Virus record (IMG/VR): IMGVR_UViG_3300037321_000105
Location: 1-30,480 of that record
Origin: a virus
Reading direction: 5' to 3' (one strand)
Length of the DNA: 30,480 nt
Shown: positions 2,990-27,796 of the stretch, piece after piece
Position numbering within the stretch: the first letter of the stretch is position 1
Layout of the letters: every line of letters starts with the position of its first letter
Position numbers and translations under genes: made by a program
Notes under the pieces: generated by a model
The model's input: the letters and a program-made list of their open reading frames with translations, nothing else
Told to the model about the DNA's origin: nothing
Database searches by the model: none

Positions 2990-3601
2990 ATGACCGTAGA
3001 AAGCACACCAAACCCCGCAGACGGCACGCCCCCTGAAGGTGGAGCGCCTGATGAAAAAGGGGCAGAGAACCAAGACGGTGGGGAGAAAGCTGAACCTACA
3101 GTTGCCGAGGCAATGGCAGAGGCGGCCAAATGGAAAGCTCTCAGCCAGAAGAATGAGAAGCAAGCAAAAGCCAATGACCAGGCCGTGAAGGACTTGGATC
3201 AGCTAAAGAGAACGCAACTGACGGATCAGGAACGGCTGGTGGAGTCTGCAAAAGATGAAACCCGCCTGGCTGTTCGCGTGGAGTTTGCAAGCAAACTAGT
3301 TGATGCAGAGTTCAAATCCAGCCTGAGTGGCCGTTCTCTGGATGGTAACGCATTGCTTGAGTTCGATAAGAGTTCTTTCATCACTGACGGTGGCGAGGTG
3401 GATTCTGATGCAATCGCGGCATGGGTTGAGGCTCATAGCACTAAAACGGCGCTGGCAAGCCCTGACATGGGGCAAGGCAGTAGAGGCAAAAGTTCTGATT
3501 TGGCACAAATTACTTCCAGAGAAGAATTCAAGAATATGTCACCAGCGGAAATCACAGAGGCCCACAAAAGTGGCCGCCTCGACCAAATGATGGGGAAATA
3601 A
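2990..3601 (+). CDS. Capsid scaffolding protein
   Basis: A 203-residue, strongly acidic, glutamate/lysine/alanine-rich protein directly before the major capsid gene, the standard place for a scaffold. The N-terminal 45 residues are low-complexity (proline, glycine, acidic). Residues about 45-100 are predicted helical or coiled-coil (KWKALSQKNEKQAKANDQ). The C-terminal 30 residues contain a conserved-looking segment (SREEFKNMSPAEITEAHKSG) like the capsid-binding end of actinophage scaffolds. Scaffolds of this kind assemble inside the prohead and leave or are degraded before packaging. ATG start with GGAGG 9 bases upstream. Confidence 0.85.
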   Translation: MTVESTPNPADGTPPEGGAPDEKGAENQDGGEKAEPTVAEAMAEAAKWKALSQKNEKQAKANDQAVKDLDQLKRTQLTDQERLVESAKDETRLAVRVEFASKLVDAEFKSSLSGRSLDGNALLEFDKSSFITDGGEVDSDAIAAWVEAHSTKTALASPDMGQGSRGKSSDLAQITSREEFKNMSPAEITEAHKSGRLDQMMGK

Positions 3602-3627
3602 GACACCCCAAAGAAAGGTAGCTTAAC

Positions 3628-4446
3628 ATGGCTATTGACCAATTTATTCCAGAAATTTGGGCGGCTGGTGTAACCCAGTCTTTCATTGCAAACCAGGTTG
3701 TAATCCCCACGTTGCGTACTCAGTACACTGACGCGGTTGCTCCTGGTAACAAAGTTCACATTATTAACGCGACTACGCCCACGATTGTGGACTACGCCGG
3801 GGCCAGCCGCGTTATCAACCCTGAAGCGTTGGCGGATACTGAAGTCAACTTGGACATTGACCAGGAAAAAGCGTTCTCTGTGAACGTTGATGACGTGGAC
3901 AAAGTACAGGCTGGCAACGGGTTCCAGGCGTGGGTTGATTCCGCGGGGAAAGCACTCGCTGAGGATGCTGAAAACTACCTGGTTGACCTCATGGTTGCTG
4001 GTGGTACTGACGGCAACCCTGACGATGTTGAACTCGACACGGCGGCCAAAGCCAAGACCGCGGTGCGCGACATTCGCCGGCTCATGGCAAACGCTAAGGT
4101 GCCCACTGGCAACCGTTACCTGGTTGTGAACCCTGATTTCACTGACTTGCTCATTCAAGCTTTGGATGACTCAAGCATTGCCGGGACAGATGACACGTTG
4201 CGCAATGGGGTGATTGGGCGTCTTTACGGGTTTACCGTAATTGAGTCCCCTTTGCTCTCTGTTGCGGGTACGCCTGCCGCTATGGGCTACCACCAGGACA
4301 TGGTTGCCTATGTCAACCAAATTCAGTCCCTTGAGGCGCTGAGAAGCCAGAGCAAGTTCGCTGACATTGTTCGCGGGCTGAACGTCTATGGAGCCAAAGT
4401 GGTTAAGACTGCCGCGGTTGTCCAGTACGTTTCAGTGGCCGCTTAG
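3628..4446 (+). CDS. Major capsid protein
   Basis: A 272-residue protein in the canonical place after the scaffold. It builds the icosahedral shell. The N-terminus (MAIDQFIPEIWAAGV) and the later pattern, including a spine-helix-like segment around residues 95-115 (GFQAWVDSAGKALAEDAENY) and a VVNPDF strand near 165, are typical of HK97-fold or P22-coat-like capsids of actinophages. GAAAGG at 3613-3618 is the ribosome site. A hairpin follows the stop and may limit read-through. No large N-terminal delta domain is present, in keeping with a separate scaffold. Confidence 0.9.
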   Translation: MAIDQFIPEIWAAGVTQSFIANQVVIPTLRTQYTDAVAPGNKVHIINATTPTIVDYAGASRVINPEALADTEVNLDIDQEKAFSVNVDDVDKVQAGNGFQAWVDSAGKALAEDAENYLVDLMVAGGTDGNPDDVELDTAAKAKTAVRDIRRLMANAKVPTGNRYLVVNPDFTDLLIQALDDSSIAGTDDTLRNGVIGRLYGFTVIESPLLSVAGTPAAMGYHQDMVAYVNQIQSLEALRSQSKFADIVRGLNVYGAKVVKTAAVVQYVSVAA

Positions 4447-4465
4447 TATCAGGCCACGCTTGGCA

Positions 4466-4488
4466 GGGGGTTGGTTTCGGCCAACCCC
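4466..4488 (+). terminator. Hairpin after the major capsid gene (attenuator or partial terminator)
   Basis: GGGGTTGG (4467-4474) pairs perfectly with CCAACCCC (4481-4488) around a TTTCGG loop, with further weak pairing outside. Only three T residues follow, so termination is probably partial. This would let the capsid be expressed more strongly than the neck genes downstream. Confidence 0.6.
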
Positions 4489-4536
4489 TTTCCCGGCACC
4501 CAGCCGCAAATCTTTTGACACAGGGAGGGCACAAAA

Positions 4537-5139
4537 ATGGCATTAGCCACAATTGCTGACGTGACGGCCCGCCTGGGCAGAGATCTAACAACGGCAGAAA
4601 CAAGCAAAGCCACAGCATGGCTCACAGACGCTTCAGCCATGTTTGTGCAACGCTCTGTTCAACAGTTCGAGGTGGGTGAATCCACTGTGCGCCTGTTCCC
4701 CCTCAGCGGGGTTGTGCGCTTAGTCCAGCGCCCGGTCATTAGCGTTGTGACAGTCAAAGACCTTGAGAACGTGAACATGACTTTCACGTTCGATAACAGT
4801 CAAGCAATCTATGACCTCGGCACTTTCACCCCTGTGATTGTGAACTACACCCACGGTGACGCCACTATTCCTGACGATGTGGTTGCTGTGGTTGCCGGCA
4901 TGGTGGTCAGAACGCTACAGATCCCCGCTGACGCGGCGGCTGGTATTCAACAGCAATCAGTTGGCCCCTTTTCCCAGACCTACGCAAATTGGGCTGTGGG
5001 CGCACAAGTTTTGCTTTCACCGTCTGACACTCAGGTGGCTGACTCTTACAGGGACAAAACTTTCAGGTCAGCCTCAACGATTGGAAACAAAAACTATGGA
5101 GGATATTACCCAAGTCAGACGCGCTTCGGCATCAACTGA
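4537..5139 (+). CDS. Head-tail connector (adaptor) protein
   Basis: A 200-residue protein immediately after the capsid gene, where gp6/gp15-type adaptors that extend the portal are coded. It begins with an alpha-helical segment (IADVTARLGRDLTTAE...AWLTDASAMF), as adaptors of this fold do, and continues with beta-rich regions. GGGAGGG at 4523-4529 is a strong ribosome site 7 bases before the ATG. The 3' end overlaps the next gene by 44 bases. Assignment is by position and overall pattern; individual neck proteins diverge fast. Confidence 0.75.
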   Translation: MALATIADVTARLGRDLTTAETSKATAWLTDASAMFVQRSVQQFEVGESTVRLFPLSGVVRLVQRPVISVVTVKDLENVNMTFTFDNSQAIYDLGTFTPVIVNYTHGDATIPDDVVAVVAGMVVRTLQIPADAAAGIQQQSVGPFSQTYANWAVGAQVLLSPSDTQVADSYRDKTFRSASTIGNKNYGGYYPSQTRFGIN

Positions 5140-5419
5140 CGCATACGGTGAGCCGGTCTATACCACCGTGTCCACCACGGTCCAGGGCATGGTTTCTGCC
5201 CGTGTTTCTAGCACCAATTTTGACCCTGACCAAATCACGATTGCAGACGGTTTGACCGTCTACTTTGCCAGCGGTTTTGACATTGAGGATGATGACAAGT
5301 TCATTGTTCGCGGAAAAACTTATGAGCTTGACGGTGAGGCTTTTGATTGGCGGGCCGGCTTAGGCTCCTGGTCCCCCGGCACCGTGGCTAACTTGCAAAG
5401 CGAGGTTGAACGTGGCTAG
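5096..5419 (+). CDS. Head-tail joining (neck) protein
   Basis: A 107-residue protein beginning MEDITQVRR. The frame is open further upstream to 4856, but that part lies antiparallel to nothing and fully inside the connector gene, so ATG 5096 is the first sensible start. GGAAAC lies upstream. The content (beta-rich, acidic, DIEDDDKFIVRGKTYELDGEAFDWRA split by turns) matches head-closure or stopper proteins, which are often annotated as minor capsid or head-tail joining protein. Position second after the capsid agrees. It overlaps the following gene by 8 bases. Confidence 0.7.
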   Translation: MEDITQVRRASASTDAYGEPVYTTVSTTVQGMVSARVSSTNFDPDQITIADGLTVYFASGFDIEDDDKFIVRGKTYELDGEAFDWRAGLGSWSPGTVANLQSEVERG

Positions 5420-5720
5420 TCAAATCCCCGGCAGAGGCGGCAGGGTAGAAATCAACAGAAAAGGTATGAGGGAGCTGATGCTTTCCCAGCCAATAGCTGA
5501 TGAATTAGAAAAACGTATGGCAAAAGTCCAGGCGGCTTTGCCAGGTTCAGAACTTTATGTCACTAGAGGCCCGCGTGGAGGTGGCCGTGCCAGAGCTGTG
5601 GTGGCTCACGGCACAGATTATGACGAGGCAAACACTGGGGATCTTTCCAGAGCTTTGGATCTTGCTGGCGGGAAGCGAGGGGACAGAGTGCAAACTAAGA
5701 AACCCCGCGCTAGGAGGTGA
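5412..5720 (+). CDS. Neck/tail-joining protein
   Basis: A 102-residue basic protein. I place the start at GTG 5412 because GCGAGG ends six bases upstream; a TTG at 5406 is also in frame. It has a helical N-terminal part (RELMLSQPIADELEKRMAKV) followed by a glycine/arginine-rich stretch and a basic C-terminus (TKKPRARR). In siphovirus maps this slot holds an HK97 gp10-like tail-completion or minor capsid protein. I see no motif that settles the family. Confidence 0.65.
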   Translation: MASQIPGRGGRVEINRKGMRELMLSQPIADELEKRMAKVQAALPGSELYVTRGPRGGGRARAVVAHGTDYDEANTGDLSRALDLAGGKRGDRVQTKKPRARR

Positions 5721-5728
5721 GGCATTGA

Positions 5729-6112
5729 ATGGCTGACGCAGTAATTTTTTCGGACATAATTTCACACCTGGTGGGGAGGCTCAAGACTGGTCTTACCGCT
5801 GAGGGCTTCACCACCACGCGGGTGGGCGTGCTGGCAGACTCCACCGTTTCACAAGTCATTCTGAGGTATGACGGTGGCAACAGGAAGTCTAAAACTCTTG
5901 CCACAACAAGTGTGGGCGTGAATATCTACGCTGACACCTACGGCAACGCCAACGCTTTGGCGCTCATGGTCACAGCCCTTTTTGATGACCTACCCAATGG
6001 AACCCCAATCACTAACACCAGCCCTGAATCGTTGATTCAAGACGTTTCAGATTTAAGTGGCGAACGCAGATTCATGCGTTTTGCCGTGGACCACAGAGGG
6101 ACAAACCTCTAA
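5729..6112 (+). CDS. Tail terminator / tail completion protein
   Basis: A 127-residue protein directly before the major tail protein, the usual slot for the tail terminator (lambda gpU-like), which caps the tail tube and joins it to the head. It begins with an amphipathic helix (FSDIISHLVGRLKTGL) followed by alternating strands, as in that fold. AGGAGG at 5712-5717 is the ribosome site, 11 bases upstream. Identified by position and pattern. Confidence 0.72.
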   Translation: MADAVIFSDIISHLVGRLKTGLTAEGFTTTRVGVLADSTVSQVILRYDGGNRKSKTLATTSVGVNIYADTYGNANALALMVTALFDDLPNGTPITNTSPESLIQDVSDLSGERRFMRFAVDHRGTNL

Positions 6113-6135
6113 CCCAATTAGCTAGGAGAAAAGAA

Positions 6136-6669
6136 ATGGCATTAGATTCTGACAACGTGAGAGTTGGCACCACGGGGGTTGTGTATGTGGCTCCCACCAG
6201 CACCACTGGCCCTACAGATTCAGACGGCACGCTTGACGCGGCCTTCATTGACCTGGGGTATTGCTCACCTGATGGGGTGAAAGAAACCATTGACAAAAGC
6301 ACAGTCCAGATTAGGGGCTGGCAGAATGGCGCGTTGGTGCGCGAGGTTGTTTCTGAGGGCACTTACTCAATTGACACCACGTTCATTGAAACCAATGAAG
6401 CCGTTTTGGAACTGTACTACGGCGTGGCCATGGATGCCGGCAAGTTCCTGATTGACCCCCGCAAAACGGGTGGCCGGCAATCATTCGTCATTGATGTAAT
6501 CGATGGGGACTCTATCGAGAGAACTTACATTCCGTCAGGCGAAATCACGGCGGTGTCAGAGCGCACACAAGCATCTGGTGAGGCTATGACCTACGGGGTC
6601 ACAATCACCGCCTACGCTGACGCAACATCAAACGTGGTCACTAAGTGGTTTTCTGATTTAGAGTCCTAA
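6136..6669 (+). CDS. Major tail (tube) protein
   Basis: A 177-residue beta-rich protein. It starts MALDSDNVRVGTTGVVYVAP, the usual opening of actinophage tube proteins, and ends with a GEAMTYGVTITAYADATSNVV strand pair. It polymerises into the tail tube around the tape measure. It sits between the tail terminator and the tail chaperones and is followed by a strong terminator, both typical. AGGAGA at 6124-6129 is the ribosome site. Confidence 0.87.
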   Translation: MALDSDNVRVGTTGVVYVAPTSTTGPTDSDGTLDAAFIDLGYCSPDGVKETIDKSTVQIRGWQNGALVREVVSEGTYSIDTTFIETNEAVLELYYGVAMDAGKFLIDPRKTGGRQSFVIDVIDGDSIERTYIPSGEITAVSERTQASGEAMTYGVTITAYADATSNVVTKWFSDLES

Positions 6670-6676
6670 CATTTTG

Positions 6677-6712
6677 CCCCAGACGTTTTTTTGCGGCGGC
6701 GTCTGGGGTTTT
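6677..6712 (+). terminator. Rho-independent terminator after the major tail gene
   Basis: CCCCAGACG (6677-6685) pairs with CGTCTGGGG (6700-6708) over 9 bp, followed by TTTT. The loop is 14 bases and T-rich. This should reduce transcription into the chaperone and tape-measure genes, which are needed in far fewer copies than the tube protein. Confidence 0.8.
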
Positions 6713-6718
6713 GACTGG

Positions 6719-6748
6719 GTGGGGGGCCACCCCCTTTTGGCCCCCCAC
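6719..6748 (+). terminator. Second, perfect 10-bp hairpin behind the tail terminator
   Basis: GTGGGGGGCC (6719-6728) pairs perfectly with GGCCCCCCAC (6739-6748), loop ACCCCCTTTT. No T-run follows. Standing 6 bases after the first terminator it may back it up, or protect the 5' end of the downstream message. Confidence 0.55.
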
Positions 6749-6789
6749 TCTCAGCCGCACATTCACACACAAAAGATGGAGCCGCAAAA

Positions 6790-7023
6790 ATGGGTTATGA
6801 ACTGAAGTACAAAACTAAGACAATCATCCTGCCTGATTTCAAAGACATTCCGGTTGGACTTATTCGCAAATCACGGTATGAGGATCCCCAAACTCAAATG
6901 TTCACATTGCTTGAGGGGTGGGTTTCTGAGGAAGATTTAGCGGTCCTAGACACCATCCCAGCCGGCGAGTTTGGCGTGAAGATGGCTGAGTGGACTGGGG
7001 GAGCCAGCCTGGGGGAATCCTAA
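6790..7023 (+). CDS. Tail assembly chaperone G
   Basis: A 77-residue protein at the place of lambda gpG, between the tube and tape-measure genes. It coats the tape measure during tail assembly and is not in the virion. The ATG has GGAG eight bases upstream. The last codons read CTG GGG GAA TCC TAA, with a G-GGG-GAA slippery run that lets some ribosomes enter the -1 frame and make the longer G-T form. Shorter than most G proteins (about 100-140 residues). Confidence 0.82.
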   Translation: MGYELKYKTKTIILPDFKDIPVGLIRKSRYEDPQTQMFTLLEGWVSEEDLAVLDTIPAGEFGVKMAEWTGGASLGES

Positions 7024-7403
7024 AGGTTCTCAAGCTTATTGAGGACCACGGGCAAGCCTTTGTGTACGATTTTAGGAGCCGCTTTGGTTTAGGAATGTCT
7101 GATGTGGGGACTGTTGTACCCTGGGGCGAGGTAGTGAACCTGGTGTTGGTTTTGTTGAGGGATCCGTCATCGTGGTTGCACACCTCAGTGAATGGCTGGT
7201 CACACCCCATCAGTTATGAATGGCCCGTTCTGGCATCCATTTATGATTTGCACGCTCAGGTCAATAGCAAGAGAAAGCCCAAACCGTTCCCGCGGCCCTG
7301 GGCTAACGCTGGGGTCAAACGCCCCAAGCCAAGAGCGAACGCCAGAGAAATTTTGAGACGCGCGAGAAATGGAGAGCTAAAGTGGCAGAACAAGGCGAAG
7401 TAA
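6790..7403 (+). CDS. Tail assembly chaperone G-T (product of -1 frameshift)
   Basis: The -1 frame is open from before the slip site to 7403 and has no good start of its own, while shifting at 7011-7017 joins it smoothly (ASLG then GILKVLKLIEDHG). The product is 204 residues with a basic, arginine-rich C-terminus. In lambda-type tails the T part binds tube subunits and brings them to the G-coated tape measure. The end overlaps the inserted HNH gene by 22 bases; before that insertion it probably overlapped the tape-measure gene in the same way. Confidence 0.8.
7011..7017 (+). other. Programmed -1 frameshift slip site GGGGGAA
   Basis: In frame 0 the heptamer is read G GGG GAA. After a one-base backward slip the P-site glycine codon re-pairs perfectly as GGG, while the A-site changes GAA to GGA with a mismatch at the second position. 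It is 4 bases before the G stop codon. An earlier run at 6997-7001 would not re-pair in the P site. The site is thus less ideal than GGGAAAG of lambda, so efficiency may be low. Confidence 0.7.
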
Positions 7404-7954
7404 GGGCTACGCGCCAGTGTTCCACATGCACAAAAACTAAGCCATTGGGAGATTTTAGTAAACAATCAGGTTGTGATGGTGGTTACAGGGGTGAGTGCCA
7501 ACAGTGTCGCAACGCAAAAGCTCGTGAATGGTATCTCAAGAATAGGGATCGCCGTAAAAAAACTGTTCAATTATGGCGGCTTGCAAACCAAGACAAAATT
7601 GCCAAAGCGGTTTCAGCGTGGACTAAGGCTAATCCAGACAAGAAATCAAATCACTACCACTCTAGAAAAGCAAAGCTTAATCAAAATGGGGTTTACCGGA
7701 TAACGGAAAAAGAATTCAAAAGGCTTTATTCTTTACCCTGTTTTTACTGTGGGGCAAACGATAAAAAAACTCAGGACCATGTGGTTCCTATCCATAGAGG
7801 GGGAAACCACTCGGTGGGCAACTTGGTAACGGCATGTCAGTCATGCAATTCTTCCAAGCAAGACAAGACCATTACTGAATGGAAAATGTACTTGCAGAAA
7901 AGATCTACTAAAGGCGGGAGTGAATTATGGCCGAACAAGCTTATGCATATGTGA
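7382..7954 (+). CDS. HNH homing-type endonuclease inserted between chaperone and tape measure
   Basis: A 190-residue HNH nuclease. The N-terminus has two CxxC pairs (C13-x2-C16 and CQQC near 41), a zinc knuckle probably used for DNA binding, then a basic helical linker. The C-terminal HNH core includes CFYCG, the DHVVPIHRGGNHSVGNL block and CQSC. The gene is visibly richer in A+T than its neighbours and breaks the otherwise constant chaperone/tape-measure junction, both signs of transfer. Its GTG start region, GTGGCAGAACAAG, closely matches the tape-measure start ATGGCCGAACAAG, suggesting insertion at that start. It overlaps G-T by 22 and the tape measure by 28 bases. Confidence 0.88.
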   Translation: MAEQGEVRATRQCSTCTKTKPLGDFSKQSGCDGGYRGECQQCRNAKAREWYLKNRDRRKKTVQLWRLANQDKIAKAVSAWTKANPDKKSNHYHSRKAKLNQNGVYRITEKEFKRLYSLPCFYCGANDKKTQDHVVPIHRGGNHSVGNLVTACQSCNSSKQDKTITEWKMYLQKRSTKGGSELWPNKLMHM

Positions 7955-10008
7955 CATTGGTGCCGGTTGCCAAAGGTTTTCAGGGAGCAATTGCAAAGGA
8001 AATGGGTGGCGCTGGCGGTGCCGGTGGCGCGGCTTTGGCAACCTCTACTGGTAAAGGGTTCACAAGCAATATCAAAAAAGCTATTGGTCCTGCTATTGGT
8101 ATTGTTGGTGCCACTTTTGCGGCGGTCAAGATTGGCGGGTTTCTCTCTGATGCGGTGACTGAAGCCACAGATTTGCGCACAGCTCTTGCTGAAGTTGTGA
8201 CCTTGACCGGGGAAACCGGCGAGGCCGCGGCAACCAGTCTGGGCATTTTTCAGTCACAAATTCGTGAGCTTTCAGGTGAATTTGGTATTGCGCAAAGCAC
8301 TTTAACGGATGGCTTATATAGCGCCATTTCGGCGGGGGTGCCAAAAGGTAATGCTTTTGACTTTTTAGCAATCGCTACAAGAGCATCCATTGCTGGGGTG
8401 ACTGATGTTGAAACAGCGGTAGACGGTGTTTCAACAATTATCAACGCTTTTGGTCTGCAAATGGGGGAAGCTGAAGCTGTTTCTGACTCCATGTTTACCG
8501 CTGTCAAGGGGGGCAAAACAACCTTTGCTGAACTTTCTTCTGCCATGTCGAACGTTGCCCCGGCGGCGGCGGCGGCAGGGGTTAGTTATGAAGAAATCAA
8601 CGCGGCTGTTGCAACCTTGACGGCAGGCGGTGCTGATACTTCTGTAGCTACTAATCAGATAAAGGCCGCACTCGTAGGCTTGCAACGCCCTTCTGAAGAT
8701 ATGAACAAGATTTTCAACGACCTTGGTTATGAGAACGCACAGGCCGCCATTGAGGCTGAGGGTTTGGCGTTTGCTTTGGGTGCTGTGAGTGATGATGCTG
8801 ATGGCAATAACGGGAAGTTGCAACAGCTCATTGGTTCGGTTGAGGGTGTCGCGGCAATTCAGACGTTGGCGGGGACTGGTGCGGAAAAGTTTGCCTCGGA
8901 GCTGGATGCTCAGGCTGATTCTGCTGGTTCAACCCAGGAAGCGTTCGAGCAGATTGATGCTACGCGGAGCGCGGAGAAGAATAAGGTTGCTTTTGATAAC
9001 CTGTCGCTTACTGTGGGAACCATCTTGTTGCCTATGGTCAAAAGTTTCAATGAGTACCTGACCACCACCTTTGTGCCTTTCCTGGAAAACACTTTTATGC
9101 CAGCCTTTGAAAACATTACCGGGTTCATCATGGATTATTTGGTGCCCGCGTTTTCGGCCATCTTTGGTTTCATTAGGGACAACATTGCAACCATTCTCAC
9201 ATTCGTGGGGGTGCTGGGCGTGTTGCTTATTGCTTTCAACGCTCAAGCCATTGCCACAAAGCTGATGACGATTGCCCAAATTGCTCTTAACACGTCAATG
9301 TTTTTGAACCCCATGGCGCTGGTTGCTCTGGGCATTGCGGCTGTCATCGCGGGCATTGTTTTCTTGGCAACAAAAACCCAGTTCTTCCAAAGGACATGGG
9401 AGATTATGACCGCGGTTGCTCTGGCCGCCTGGGAGTTTTTCAAAAACCTTTTCATCACCGCGGGGGAAGCCATTGCAGGTTTTTTCACAGGCATTGTTGA
9501 AGGCATCCGTGAGGATTTTGAAAGAGTCACGGGCTTGCTGGGGGATGCGTGGCAGGGGTTCAAAGACCTTTTCATGACAGTCTTTGACGCCATAGGCGGA
9601 TTCGTGAAAACGGCAATCAACGGTTACATTATGGCGTTTGAAAGCTTTTTCAACTTCATAATTGGTGGGGTCAACCTGCTAATTTCAGCGTTGAACAAAA
9701 TCAAACTGGACATACCAGCCACAGCGTTCAATGAAGCTTTCACTATTGGGGTGAACCTGCCCAGCATCCCCCTGGTTTCGTTGCCCCGTGTTGCTCTGGC
9801 TGAAGGTGCGCTGGTCACTGGGCCAACAAATGCTTTGATTGGCGAGGCCGGCGCAGAGGTGGTTATGCCGTTAGACAGATTTGAAAGAAACATGGGGTTG
9901 AGCGAGCGCAACGGGGAAACACTTAACTATTATGCGGCACCCAATAAGAGCTTTGATGCTGAACAAGAATTGCGTCTAGCCATGCAGAGAAGGGGAGTGT
10001 TCGCGTGA
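7927..10008 (+). CDS. Tape measure protein
   Basis: A 693-residue protein of the TP901/PhageMin_Tail type and the longest gene of the tail module. It has a glycine/alanine-rich N-terminus, a TP901-core region (about 65-350, including SIAGVTDVETAVDGVSTIIN and NVAPAAAAAGVSYEEIN), hydrophobic segments near 419-437 and 461-481 that may enter the host membrane, and the usual C-terminal GEAGAEVVMPLDRFERN. At about 0.15 nm per residue the tail would be near 100 nm; this is an estimate from the family rule. ATG with GGGAG upstream, inside the end of the HNH gene. It ends in a 4-base overlap with Dit. Confidence 0.93.
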   Translation: MAEQAYAYVTLVPVAKGFQGAIAKEMGGAGGAGGAALATSTGKGFTSNIKKAIGPAIGIVGATFAAVKIGGFLSDAVTEATDLRTALAEVVTLTGETGEAAATSLGIFQSQIRELSGEFGIAQSTLTDGLYSAISAGVPKGNAFDFLAIATRASIAGVTDVETAVDGVSTIINAFGLQMGEAEAVSDSMFTAVKGGKTTFAELSSAMSNVAPAAAAAGVSYEEINAAVATLTAGGADTSVATNQIKAALVGLQRPSEDMNKIFNDLGYENAQAAIEAEGLAFALGAVSDDADGNNGKLQQLIGSVEGVAAIQTLAGTGAEKFASELDAQADSAGSTQEAFEQIDATRSAEKNKVAFDNLSLTVGTILLPMVKSFNEYLTTTFVPFLENTFMPAFENITGFIMDYLVPAFSAIFGFIRDNIATILTFVGVLGVLLIAFNAQAIATKLMTIAQIALNTSMFLNPMALVALGIAAVIAGIVFLATKTQFFQRTWEIMTAVALAAWEFFKNLFITAGEAIAGFFTGIVEGIREDFERVTGLLGDAWQGFKDLFMTVFDAIGGFVKTAINGYIMAFESFFNFIIGGVNLLISALNKIKLDIPATAFNEAFTIGVNLPSIPLVSLPRVALAEGALVTGPTNALIGEAGAEVVMPLDRFERNMGLSERNGETLNYYAAPNKSFDAEQELRLAMQRRGVFA

Positions 10009-25838: not shown

Positions 25839-26093
25839 ATGAACAGTAAAGACACATACACATTGACTGACCCTGACCTACGGGCAGAGCTGTTCGAGAC
25901 AGTTCACCGCAAACGGGCAGTGTTGACGTGGCTTGAGTGGGAGAAGCAAGTGACTGATGACCTGGTAGAGGTAGTCCAGAGGCGTGTCGAGGAAGCGAGG
26001 CAGGAAGCCTTTATGGCCGGGCAAGAGTCGCTGACGGAAACAGCTTGGCTTCAGCGCGTTCGGGAAGTCGCACGCAACATAGGACCCCGATGA
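25839..26093 (+). CDS. Small helical protein before the packaging HNH gene
   Basis: An 84-residue, charged, all-helical protein (LFETVHRKRAVLTWLEWEKQ, then VVQRRVEEARQEAFMAGQES). No motif. ATGA overlap with the HNH gene suggests shared use, perhaps in packaging or DNA processing. Confidence 0.6.
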   Translation: MNSKDTYTLTDPDLRAELFETVHRKRAVLTWLEWEKQVTDDLVEVVQRRVEEARQEAFMAGQESLTETAWLQRVREVARNIGPR

Positions 26094-26443
26094 CCCACAA
26101 CTGGGACAGTAGCAAGCGCAGACCAGACCCCCCCTACTGGCCGGCACTACGGCGGCAGATCATTGCAAGGGCCAAAGGCTTATGTGAACACAGTGACGGA
26201 TGCACCTATACCGGGCAAGACGTTGACCACATACTGAACTTAGCCAAGGGAGGCACAGACGCCTCAGACAACCTGCAACTCTTATGCGCATGGCACCACA
26301 AGCGCAAAACATCTAAGGAAGCGAGTGAGGCCCGTGGCCCCCGTGAGTCCATATACCGCAAAAAAGAGGCCCACCCAGGGCTAATTGACCCCAGGGGGGG
26401 CACCCTGTACCCCCTGCTAGAGCCTGGCGGAGAGGTGCTGTAG
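26090..26443 (+). CDS. HNH endonuclease of the packaging type
   Basis: A 117-residue HNH protein. C-x(n)-C pairs (CEHSDGC and the C before WHH) surround DVDHILNLAKGGTDASDNLQ and LLCAWHHKRKT, a complete HNH core. The short basic form, and its place two genes before TerS, match HNH proteins that work with terminase in cos-type phages such as HK97 gp74. This suggests cohesive-end packaging, though no cos site was recognised. ATG overlaps the previous stop as ATGA. Confidence 0.82.
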   Translation: MTHNWDSSKRRPDPPYWPALRRQIIARAKGLCEHSDGCTYTGQDVDHILNLAKGGTDASDNLQLLCAWHHKRKTSKEASEARGPRESIYRKKEAHPGLIDPRGGTLYPLLEPGGEVL

Positions 26444-27655: not shown

Positions 27656-27796
27656 TTACTCTTTTAGCCACCAGTCAATGATTTGCCCAGATTCCATCAT
27701 TTCGTTATAGCCATTTTCCATGACCTCTTTTTGTTGTTGAGGCCAAATCTGGGTTCTGACAAGTCCTTCAGAGAACTTAATGTTTGCAATGAGCAT
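27656..27796 (-). CDS. 46-residue minus-strand protein between TerS and TerL
   Basis: Reading on the minus strand, MLIANIKFSEGLVRTQIWPQ then a helical acidic stretch (QQKEVMENGYNEMMESGQII) and DWWLKE. AAAGGA precedes the ATG, and a good terminator follows the stop. Codon use is AT-rich. No family recognised. It runs against both terminase genes, so it is independently controlled; a regulator or antisense-like modulator of packaging is possible, or a recent insertion. The 307 bases between TerS and TerL hold this gene, its terminator and its control region. Confidence 0.65.
   Translation of the reverse strand: MLIANIKFSEGLVRTQIWPQQQKEVMENGYNEMMESGQIIDWWLKE

Follow-up and report, generated by a model that had tools for sequence, protein, structure and literature searches.

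The HNH endonuclease gene at positions 7382–7954 of IMG/VR virus record IMGVR_UViG_3300037321_000105 begins precisely where the tape-measure protein (TMP) gene begins in relatives that lack it, and carries at its 3′-end a substitute start at which the TMP gene now opens. The element is very probably a free-standing homing endonuclease gene that captures the start of its downstream neighbour and rebuilds it, with homing as the presumed route of entry. Coordinates refer to the window, the whole stretch of DNA that was analysed (30,480 nucleotides, positions 1–30,480 of the record). Sites in relatives are called empty when the HNH gene is absent (for example, L001) and filled when it is present (L049 and L050). 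The features of the junction between the T-type tail assembly chaperone gene (T) and TMP are as follows.

6790–7023, + strand: G-type tail assembly chaperone ORF (PHROG tail assembly chaperone, E = 3e-10)
6990–7403, + strand: T-type tail assembly chaperone ORF, in the −1 frame relative to G (PHROG tail assembly chaperone, E = 2e-17)
7371–7376, + strand: former ribosome-binding site of TMP, GGAGAG, located inside T and now that of the HNH gene (same bases before the TMP start in the empty site L001)
7382–7394, + strand: captured start of TMP (GTGGCAGAACAAG), which now opens the HNH gene; left-hand copy of the 13-bp repeat (base-by-base alignment with the one TMP start present in empty sites)
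7382–7954, + strand: HNH endonuclease ORF, 190 aa, with N-terminal CxxC..CxxC and C-terminal HNH (PF01844, E = 1e-10; PHROG endonuclease VII/HNH)
7395–7939, + strand: insert, 545 bp, its position ambiguous within the 13-bp repeat (equal length, without indels, in L049 and L050)
7401–7403, + strand: present TAA stop of T, within the insert (insert-supplied T-frame stop at the same position in 3/3 filled sites)
7916–7920, + strand: replacement TMP ribosome-binding site GGGAG, in the 3′ coding end of the HNH gene (GGNGGAG at the matching place in L049 and L050)
7927–7939, + strand: rebuilt TMP start ATGGCCGAACAAG, with GCC rather than GCA at codon 2 (GCA in 34/35 distinct empty sites)
7927–10008, + strand: TMP gene, 693 aa (PF10145, E = 3e-26; PHROG tape measure, E = 9e-70)

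Upstream, the −1 frameshift of the G/GT chaperones probably takes place at CTGGGGGAATCCT (7009–7021), and TGGGGGAATCCT within this region is kept in L001, L049 and L050.

The two start repeats

The 13-mers GTGGCAGAACAAG (7382–7394) and ATGGCCGAACAAG (7927–7939) are identical at 11 of 13 positions and differ at the first and sixth bases, exactly as a preliminary description made from the window alone had reported. Its further observations, that both starts read MAEQ and lie in similar ribosome-site contexts, are borne out by the translations of both ORFs (7382–7954 and 7927–10008) and by the location of GGAGAG at 7371–7376 and GGGAG at 7916–7920, for which similar anti-SD pairing energies are predicted (−9.7 and −8.9 kcal/mol, respectively). 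The HNH/TMP pair, formed by adjacent genes, is the sole 11/13 match among 1035 plausible gene-start pairs in the window. Taken alone, the 13-mer match is only moderately improbable; we regard the alignment with relatives, rather than the match by itself, as decisive for the observation.

Empty sites in relatives lacking the HNH gene

When viral contigs were searched with the N-terminus of TMP, 48 loci emerged; 42 of them lack the HNH gene and have sufficient flank, and 35 of these 42 are distinct. The preliminary description had placed the original TMP start at 7382 and had proposed looking for a single MAEQ start in HNH-less relatives. All 35 distinct empty sites have one such start, at the position equivalent to 7382 and within the 3′-end of T, while a second MAEQ-like start or a start elsewhere occurs in none (0/35). 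The start sequence is ATGGCAGARCARGC in 34 of the 35, and the general context is GATGGAGA, or a site resembling it, in the T gene, followed by ATGGC[A/T]GARCARGC. All empty sites, as well as L049 and L050, have ATG as the start codon at this position, which in the window has become GTG. The T frame extends 28 bp into TMP in 33 of the 35 distinct empty sites. The 22-base overlap with the G-T chaperone gene that had been attributed to the original arrangement is therefore true of the present T (7382–7403), but the ancestral overlap is 28 bp; the difference arises because the insert shortened T.

Two near-isogenic pairs of empty and filled sites define the insertion most closely. The empty site L001 shares 98.4% identity with the window across the 3991 bp upstream (3404–7394) and then runs straight into TMP, with 12 mismatches to the window in the first 270 bp downstream of the junction. 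L008, the empty partner of the filled site L050, differs from it at 0–3 positions per 30 bp on either side, close to the junction. The HNH gene is thus optional between two conserved genes, being present or absent in close relatives (window/L001 and L050/L008), and its insertion at the old start, with use of that start and its ribosome-binding site, is established by the empty/filled alignment. Farther downstream, identity between the window and L001 falls from ~95% to ~67% about 360 bp into TMP (8290–10008), a sharp mosaic boundary.

The conservation peak of the region coincides with the first 12 bases of TMP (mean identity 96%), presumably because they code in two frames. Such a conserved junction would suit a homing endonuclease, which needs a conserved target. 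A natural site-less state is seen in L010, L011 and L012, whose TMPs are 63% identical to that of the window but have an unrelated N-terminus and no MAEQ site. No isolated phage with DNA similar to window positions 5400–10000 was found in the phage collection.

Structure of the filled sites

The window, L049 and L050 are the three filled sites, and each carries the same 545-bp insert at the same base without indels. In all three, the HNH ORF opens with the former TMP start and is served by the ribosome-binding site embedded in T. The T stop is a TAA within GTAAGG or ATAAGG, two codons past the repeat, so that the last four T residues past WQNK are replaced by two. At the other end, the HNH gene encodes KGG in 3/3 filled sites, and this stretch holds the purine-rich site now serving TMP. 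The substitute TMP start that had been proposed at the HNH 3′-end is present at 7927 in the window and likewise in L049 and L050. The rebuilt starts are ATGGCCGAACAAG (window), ATGAGCGAACAAG (L049) and ATGGCCGAGCAAG (L050), with codon 2 being GCC, AGC and GCC, respectively, as against GCA in 34 of the 35 empty sites. The insertion had been called scarless, which holds almost fully: the N-terminus of TMP remains MAEQ (MSEQ in L049), and T loses four terminal residues and gains two.

In L049 and L050, the HNH gene ends in a TAA stop directly before the TMP ATG. The window HNH gene has lost its own TAA and consequently reads 28 bp into TMP, ending in ..WPNKLMHM, with its last 28 bp in the former T frame. 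The lost stop and the GTG start may mean that the window copy is in decay; its reading frame, on the other hand, remains intact.

The HNH protein and its mobility

The protein matches PF01844 at 41.9 bits, above the Pfam gathering score of 21.4, and the solved HNH endonuclease 4h9d at 2e-08. A comparison with endonuclease VII-type (DHHRN) homing endonucleases points two ways: its top PHROG is endonuclease VII (8e-34), but the catalytic domain, taken as a whole, scores as a classical HNH domain. Assignment to a defence system was discarded, as the PADLOC matches are weak and involve the HNH domain only. The family at the T/TMP junction has three known members (window, L049 and L050) at one site, all on metagenomic contigs. 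Viral contigs, scanned by alignment and with two degenerate DNA patterns, returned L049, L050 and one distant match, and a scan of genome contigs yielded no further members. The window has a second HNH ORF (26045–26443; PF01844, 25.5 bits), possibly a packaging HNH; ~1.2 kb downstream of it follows a large ORF, at 27683, that may be the terminase.

Between the window and L049, identity is 87.5% for HNH, 58.6% for T and 73.9% for TMP; between L049 and L050, it is 86.0% for HNH, 96.4% for T and 96.7% for TMP. This mismatch indicates that HNH alleles move independently of their backbones, always to the same base. Base composition, a comparison the preliminary description had suggested, also sets the gene apart: its GC content is 43.5% in a window of 53.2%, and that of the L050 HNH gene is 38.0% in a locus of 49.2%. 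The dN/dS of HNH is low (0.16–0.19 by NG86, 0.23–0.31 by YN00), and the protein is therefore under selection. The first 25 bp of the window TMP differ from L001 at four positions, and CTTATGC there is common to L049 and L050; these differences would fit a short co-converted tract, a weak sign by itself.

Start capture in other phage groups

Capture by homologous HNH genes was judged where empty relatives were at hand. A 13-bp start repeat like that of the window is absent from all 12 sampled homologues. The HNH gene of Museum, a cluster A mycobacteriophage, lies between lysB and terL and is homologous to the window HNH (34% identity). It begins with VAVHYPESLLPAP, which matches, at all but one base, the first 13 terL codons of the HNH-less relatives Kugel, IgnatiusPatJac and PinkPlastic. 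At its 3′-end, terL is rebuilt as TTG..LQESPEKK-LLPAP-SHI, in which LLPAP is recoded in 5/5 codons and the first eight residues differ. Kenmech, Marge and Niza agree with Museum, two of these three having LLPDP in the captured copy. Left of the insert, Museum and IgnatiusPatJac are near-identical bar one small patch; right of it, there are 5–8 differences per 30 bases for ~300 bp, followed by near-identity. This divergent terL tract, with its near-identical flanks, corresponds to L062 1970–2270. It is likely, from this pattern of divergence, to be the mark of homing co-conversion, and the Museum recoding may for that reason also reflect normal divergence of the donor instead of selection for recoding.

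In Lactococcus phage 63301, the HNH gene sits upstream of an intact portal start, and capture is hence not universal. The Wanda HNH gene (L067 1498–2082) starts where lysA starts in LittleE (L076), a comparison hampered by the high divergence of lysA.

The Corndog-type HNH protein, composed of HNH_3 plus AP2, is not homologous to that of the window. The comparison was made on relatives of Corndog rather than on Corndog itself. In Firecracker, Mori and Murai, the HNH start coincides exactly with the start that TMP has in Catdawg and Ryadel. The insert measures 604 bp, and a GCGGGGTG site precedes TMP, which opens as ACGGCAATACAT... In a 2015 proteomics study, mass spectrometry places AIHIDIYAHLQK at the beginning of the Corndog TMP peptides; the study finds no splicing and, in the part available, leaves the ACG initiation unexplained (PMC4351075). 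On the present reading, this ACG is the rebuilt TMP start supplied by the HNH 3′-end, and the peptides reported there indicate that the rebuilt starts of such elements work.

Alternative explanations

A self-splicing intron, an intein-like element or a ribosomal-bypass segment would leave TMP starting at 7382, with the repeats as splice or landing sites. The insert is flanked by repeats, and introns with HNH genes do occur in some phage tape-measure genes (ICP1; PMC10448857). The HNH ORF, however, occupies nearly all of the 545 bp and leaves no space for a ribozyme core, no Rfam intron matches positions 6700–8400 at E-values up to 1, and the junction provides TMP with a ribosome-binding site and an ATG of its own. 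For Corndog, the parallel case, the RT-PCR described in the available text of PMC4351075 gave no spliced RNA. An intein was rejected separately, as an insert of 545 bp, which is not a multiple of three and contains a T-frame stop, is not in frame on both sides. Elements of this kind are accordingly very improbable here. A comparably small probability attaches to the idea that a transposase-like or staggered-cut insertion duplicated its target site as the 13-bp repeat, with the rebuilding of the start accidental. Direct repeats do flank the insert in 3/3 filled sites, but the right copy departs from the target in every one (GCC, AGC and GCC against GCA), and the right-hand substitute in Museum is no copy of the first eight codons. 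The HNH gene is moreover the sole ORF of the insert, which additionally brings a ribosome-binding site and a T stop.

Least probable of all is an ordinary resident HNH gene, such as a packaging HNH, whose double MAEQ would reflect chance or a local duplication of a gene start. Phage packaging modules often contain HNH proteins, many genes start with MA.., and the 13-mer match by itself is not very improbable, but this explanation is contradicted by the 35 distinct empty sites and the near-isogenic empty/filled pairs, by HNH divergence that departs from that of the backbone, and by the position of the gene in the tail module.

Proposed mechanism

Under the preferred reading of a start-capturing homing endonuclease gene, the 545-bp HNH gene came to lie in the T/TMP junction, precisely at the TMP start. 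Its ORF takes over the former TMP start codon and ribosome-binding site. The opening codons of the insert terminate T in its own frame, and the terminal HNH codons double as a new ribosome-binding site, followed by an ATG and recoded TMP codons 2–4 that retain MAEQ. In a mixed infection, the HNH protein would cut HNH-less genomes at or near the junction, and repair of the break would copy the insert across along with part of its flanks. Capturing the start and then rebuilding it would free such an element from any need for splicing, an intergenic gap or a promoter of its own. In T4 free-standing homing endonucleases, cleavage and insertion sites usually lie hundreds of bases or further apart (PMC2988022), and the target here may thus be in TMP or T instead of at the junction.

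Speculatively, the recoded start might protect the element from self-cutting or from loss via recombination between the two copies. A broader proposal, which we consider rather doubtful, is that these elements are natural 'home-and-rescue' devices, in which the endonuclease targets and captures the start of an essential gene and brings a synonymously recoded, uncuttable substitute, such that imprecise loss of the element would cost the phage that gene. Capture with a recoded rescue would then have arisen at least twice (in one HNH family at TMP and terL, and in the unrelated HNH_3 type at TMP). Engineered home-and-rescue gene drives target an essential gene and carry its rescue (PMC7968924); the likeness to them is our own analogy.

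Relation to known systems and significance

Free-standing homing endonucleases, their ORF overlaps with neighbours and their presence before tmp are already known. The T4 seg and mob genes, like the window element, are unspliced, lie between conserved genes and undergo intronless homing, and several T4 free-standing endonuclease genes overlap the upstream ORF by 11–24 bp, but the part of PMC2988022 available describes no capture or rebuilding of a downstream start. The same paper covers mobE in Aeh1 nrdA and mobA in T4 gene 60, which resemble the present case in that an essential gene is interrupted yet functional. In ShiLan (PMC11855218), an HNH gene likewise lies in a protein gene without an intron or intein; unlike that of the window, it is inside a phage methylase gene, is read through in another frame and gives its host gene no new start. 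Museum and its relatives share with the window a homologous HNH gene that has captured the start of a downstream essential gene and provides a substitute at its 3′-end, but the capture extends 13 codons into terL and the substitute begins with TTG and differs in its first eight residues. Closest in position is the HNH gene of Corndog, Firecracker and YungJamal (PMC4351075), which is also found at the tail assembly chaperone/tmp junction, begins at the old TMP start and has the TMP ribosome-binding site and start at its 3′-end. It differs in its non-homologous HNH protein and its rebuilt ACG start, and start capture is not described in the available text of that study. In the open-licence literature, no description was found of an endonuclease gene that captures a downstream start and supplies a substitute at its 3′-end.

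The finding offers a reading of the otherwise unexplained ACG at which Corndog TMP starts. For annotation, it is a warning that a start codon conserved in relatives may now be that of an HNH gene. How mobile genes enter operons is usually discussed in terms of introns, inteins and intergenic insertions. The recurrence of the same start-capture scheme in two further phage groups, as read from their sequences, suggests a general and harmless route into packed operons, by which selfish genes can enter overlapping phage genes without splicing and leave essential genes unbroken.
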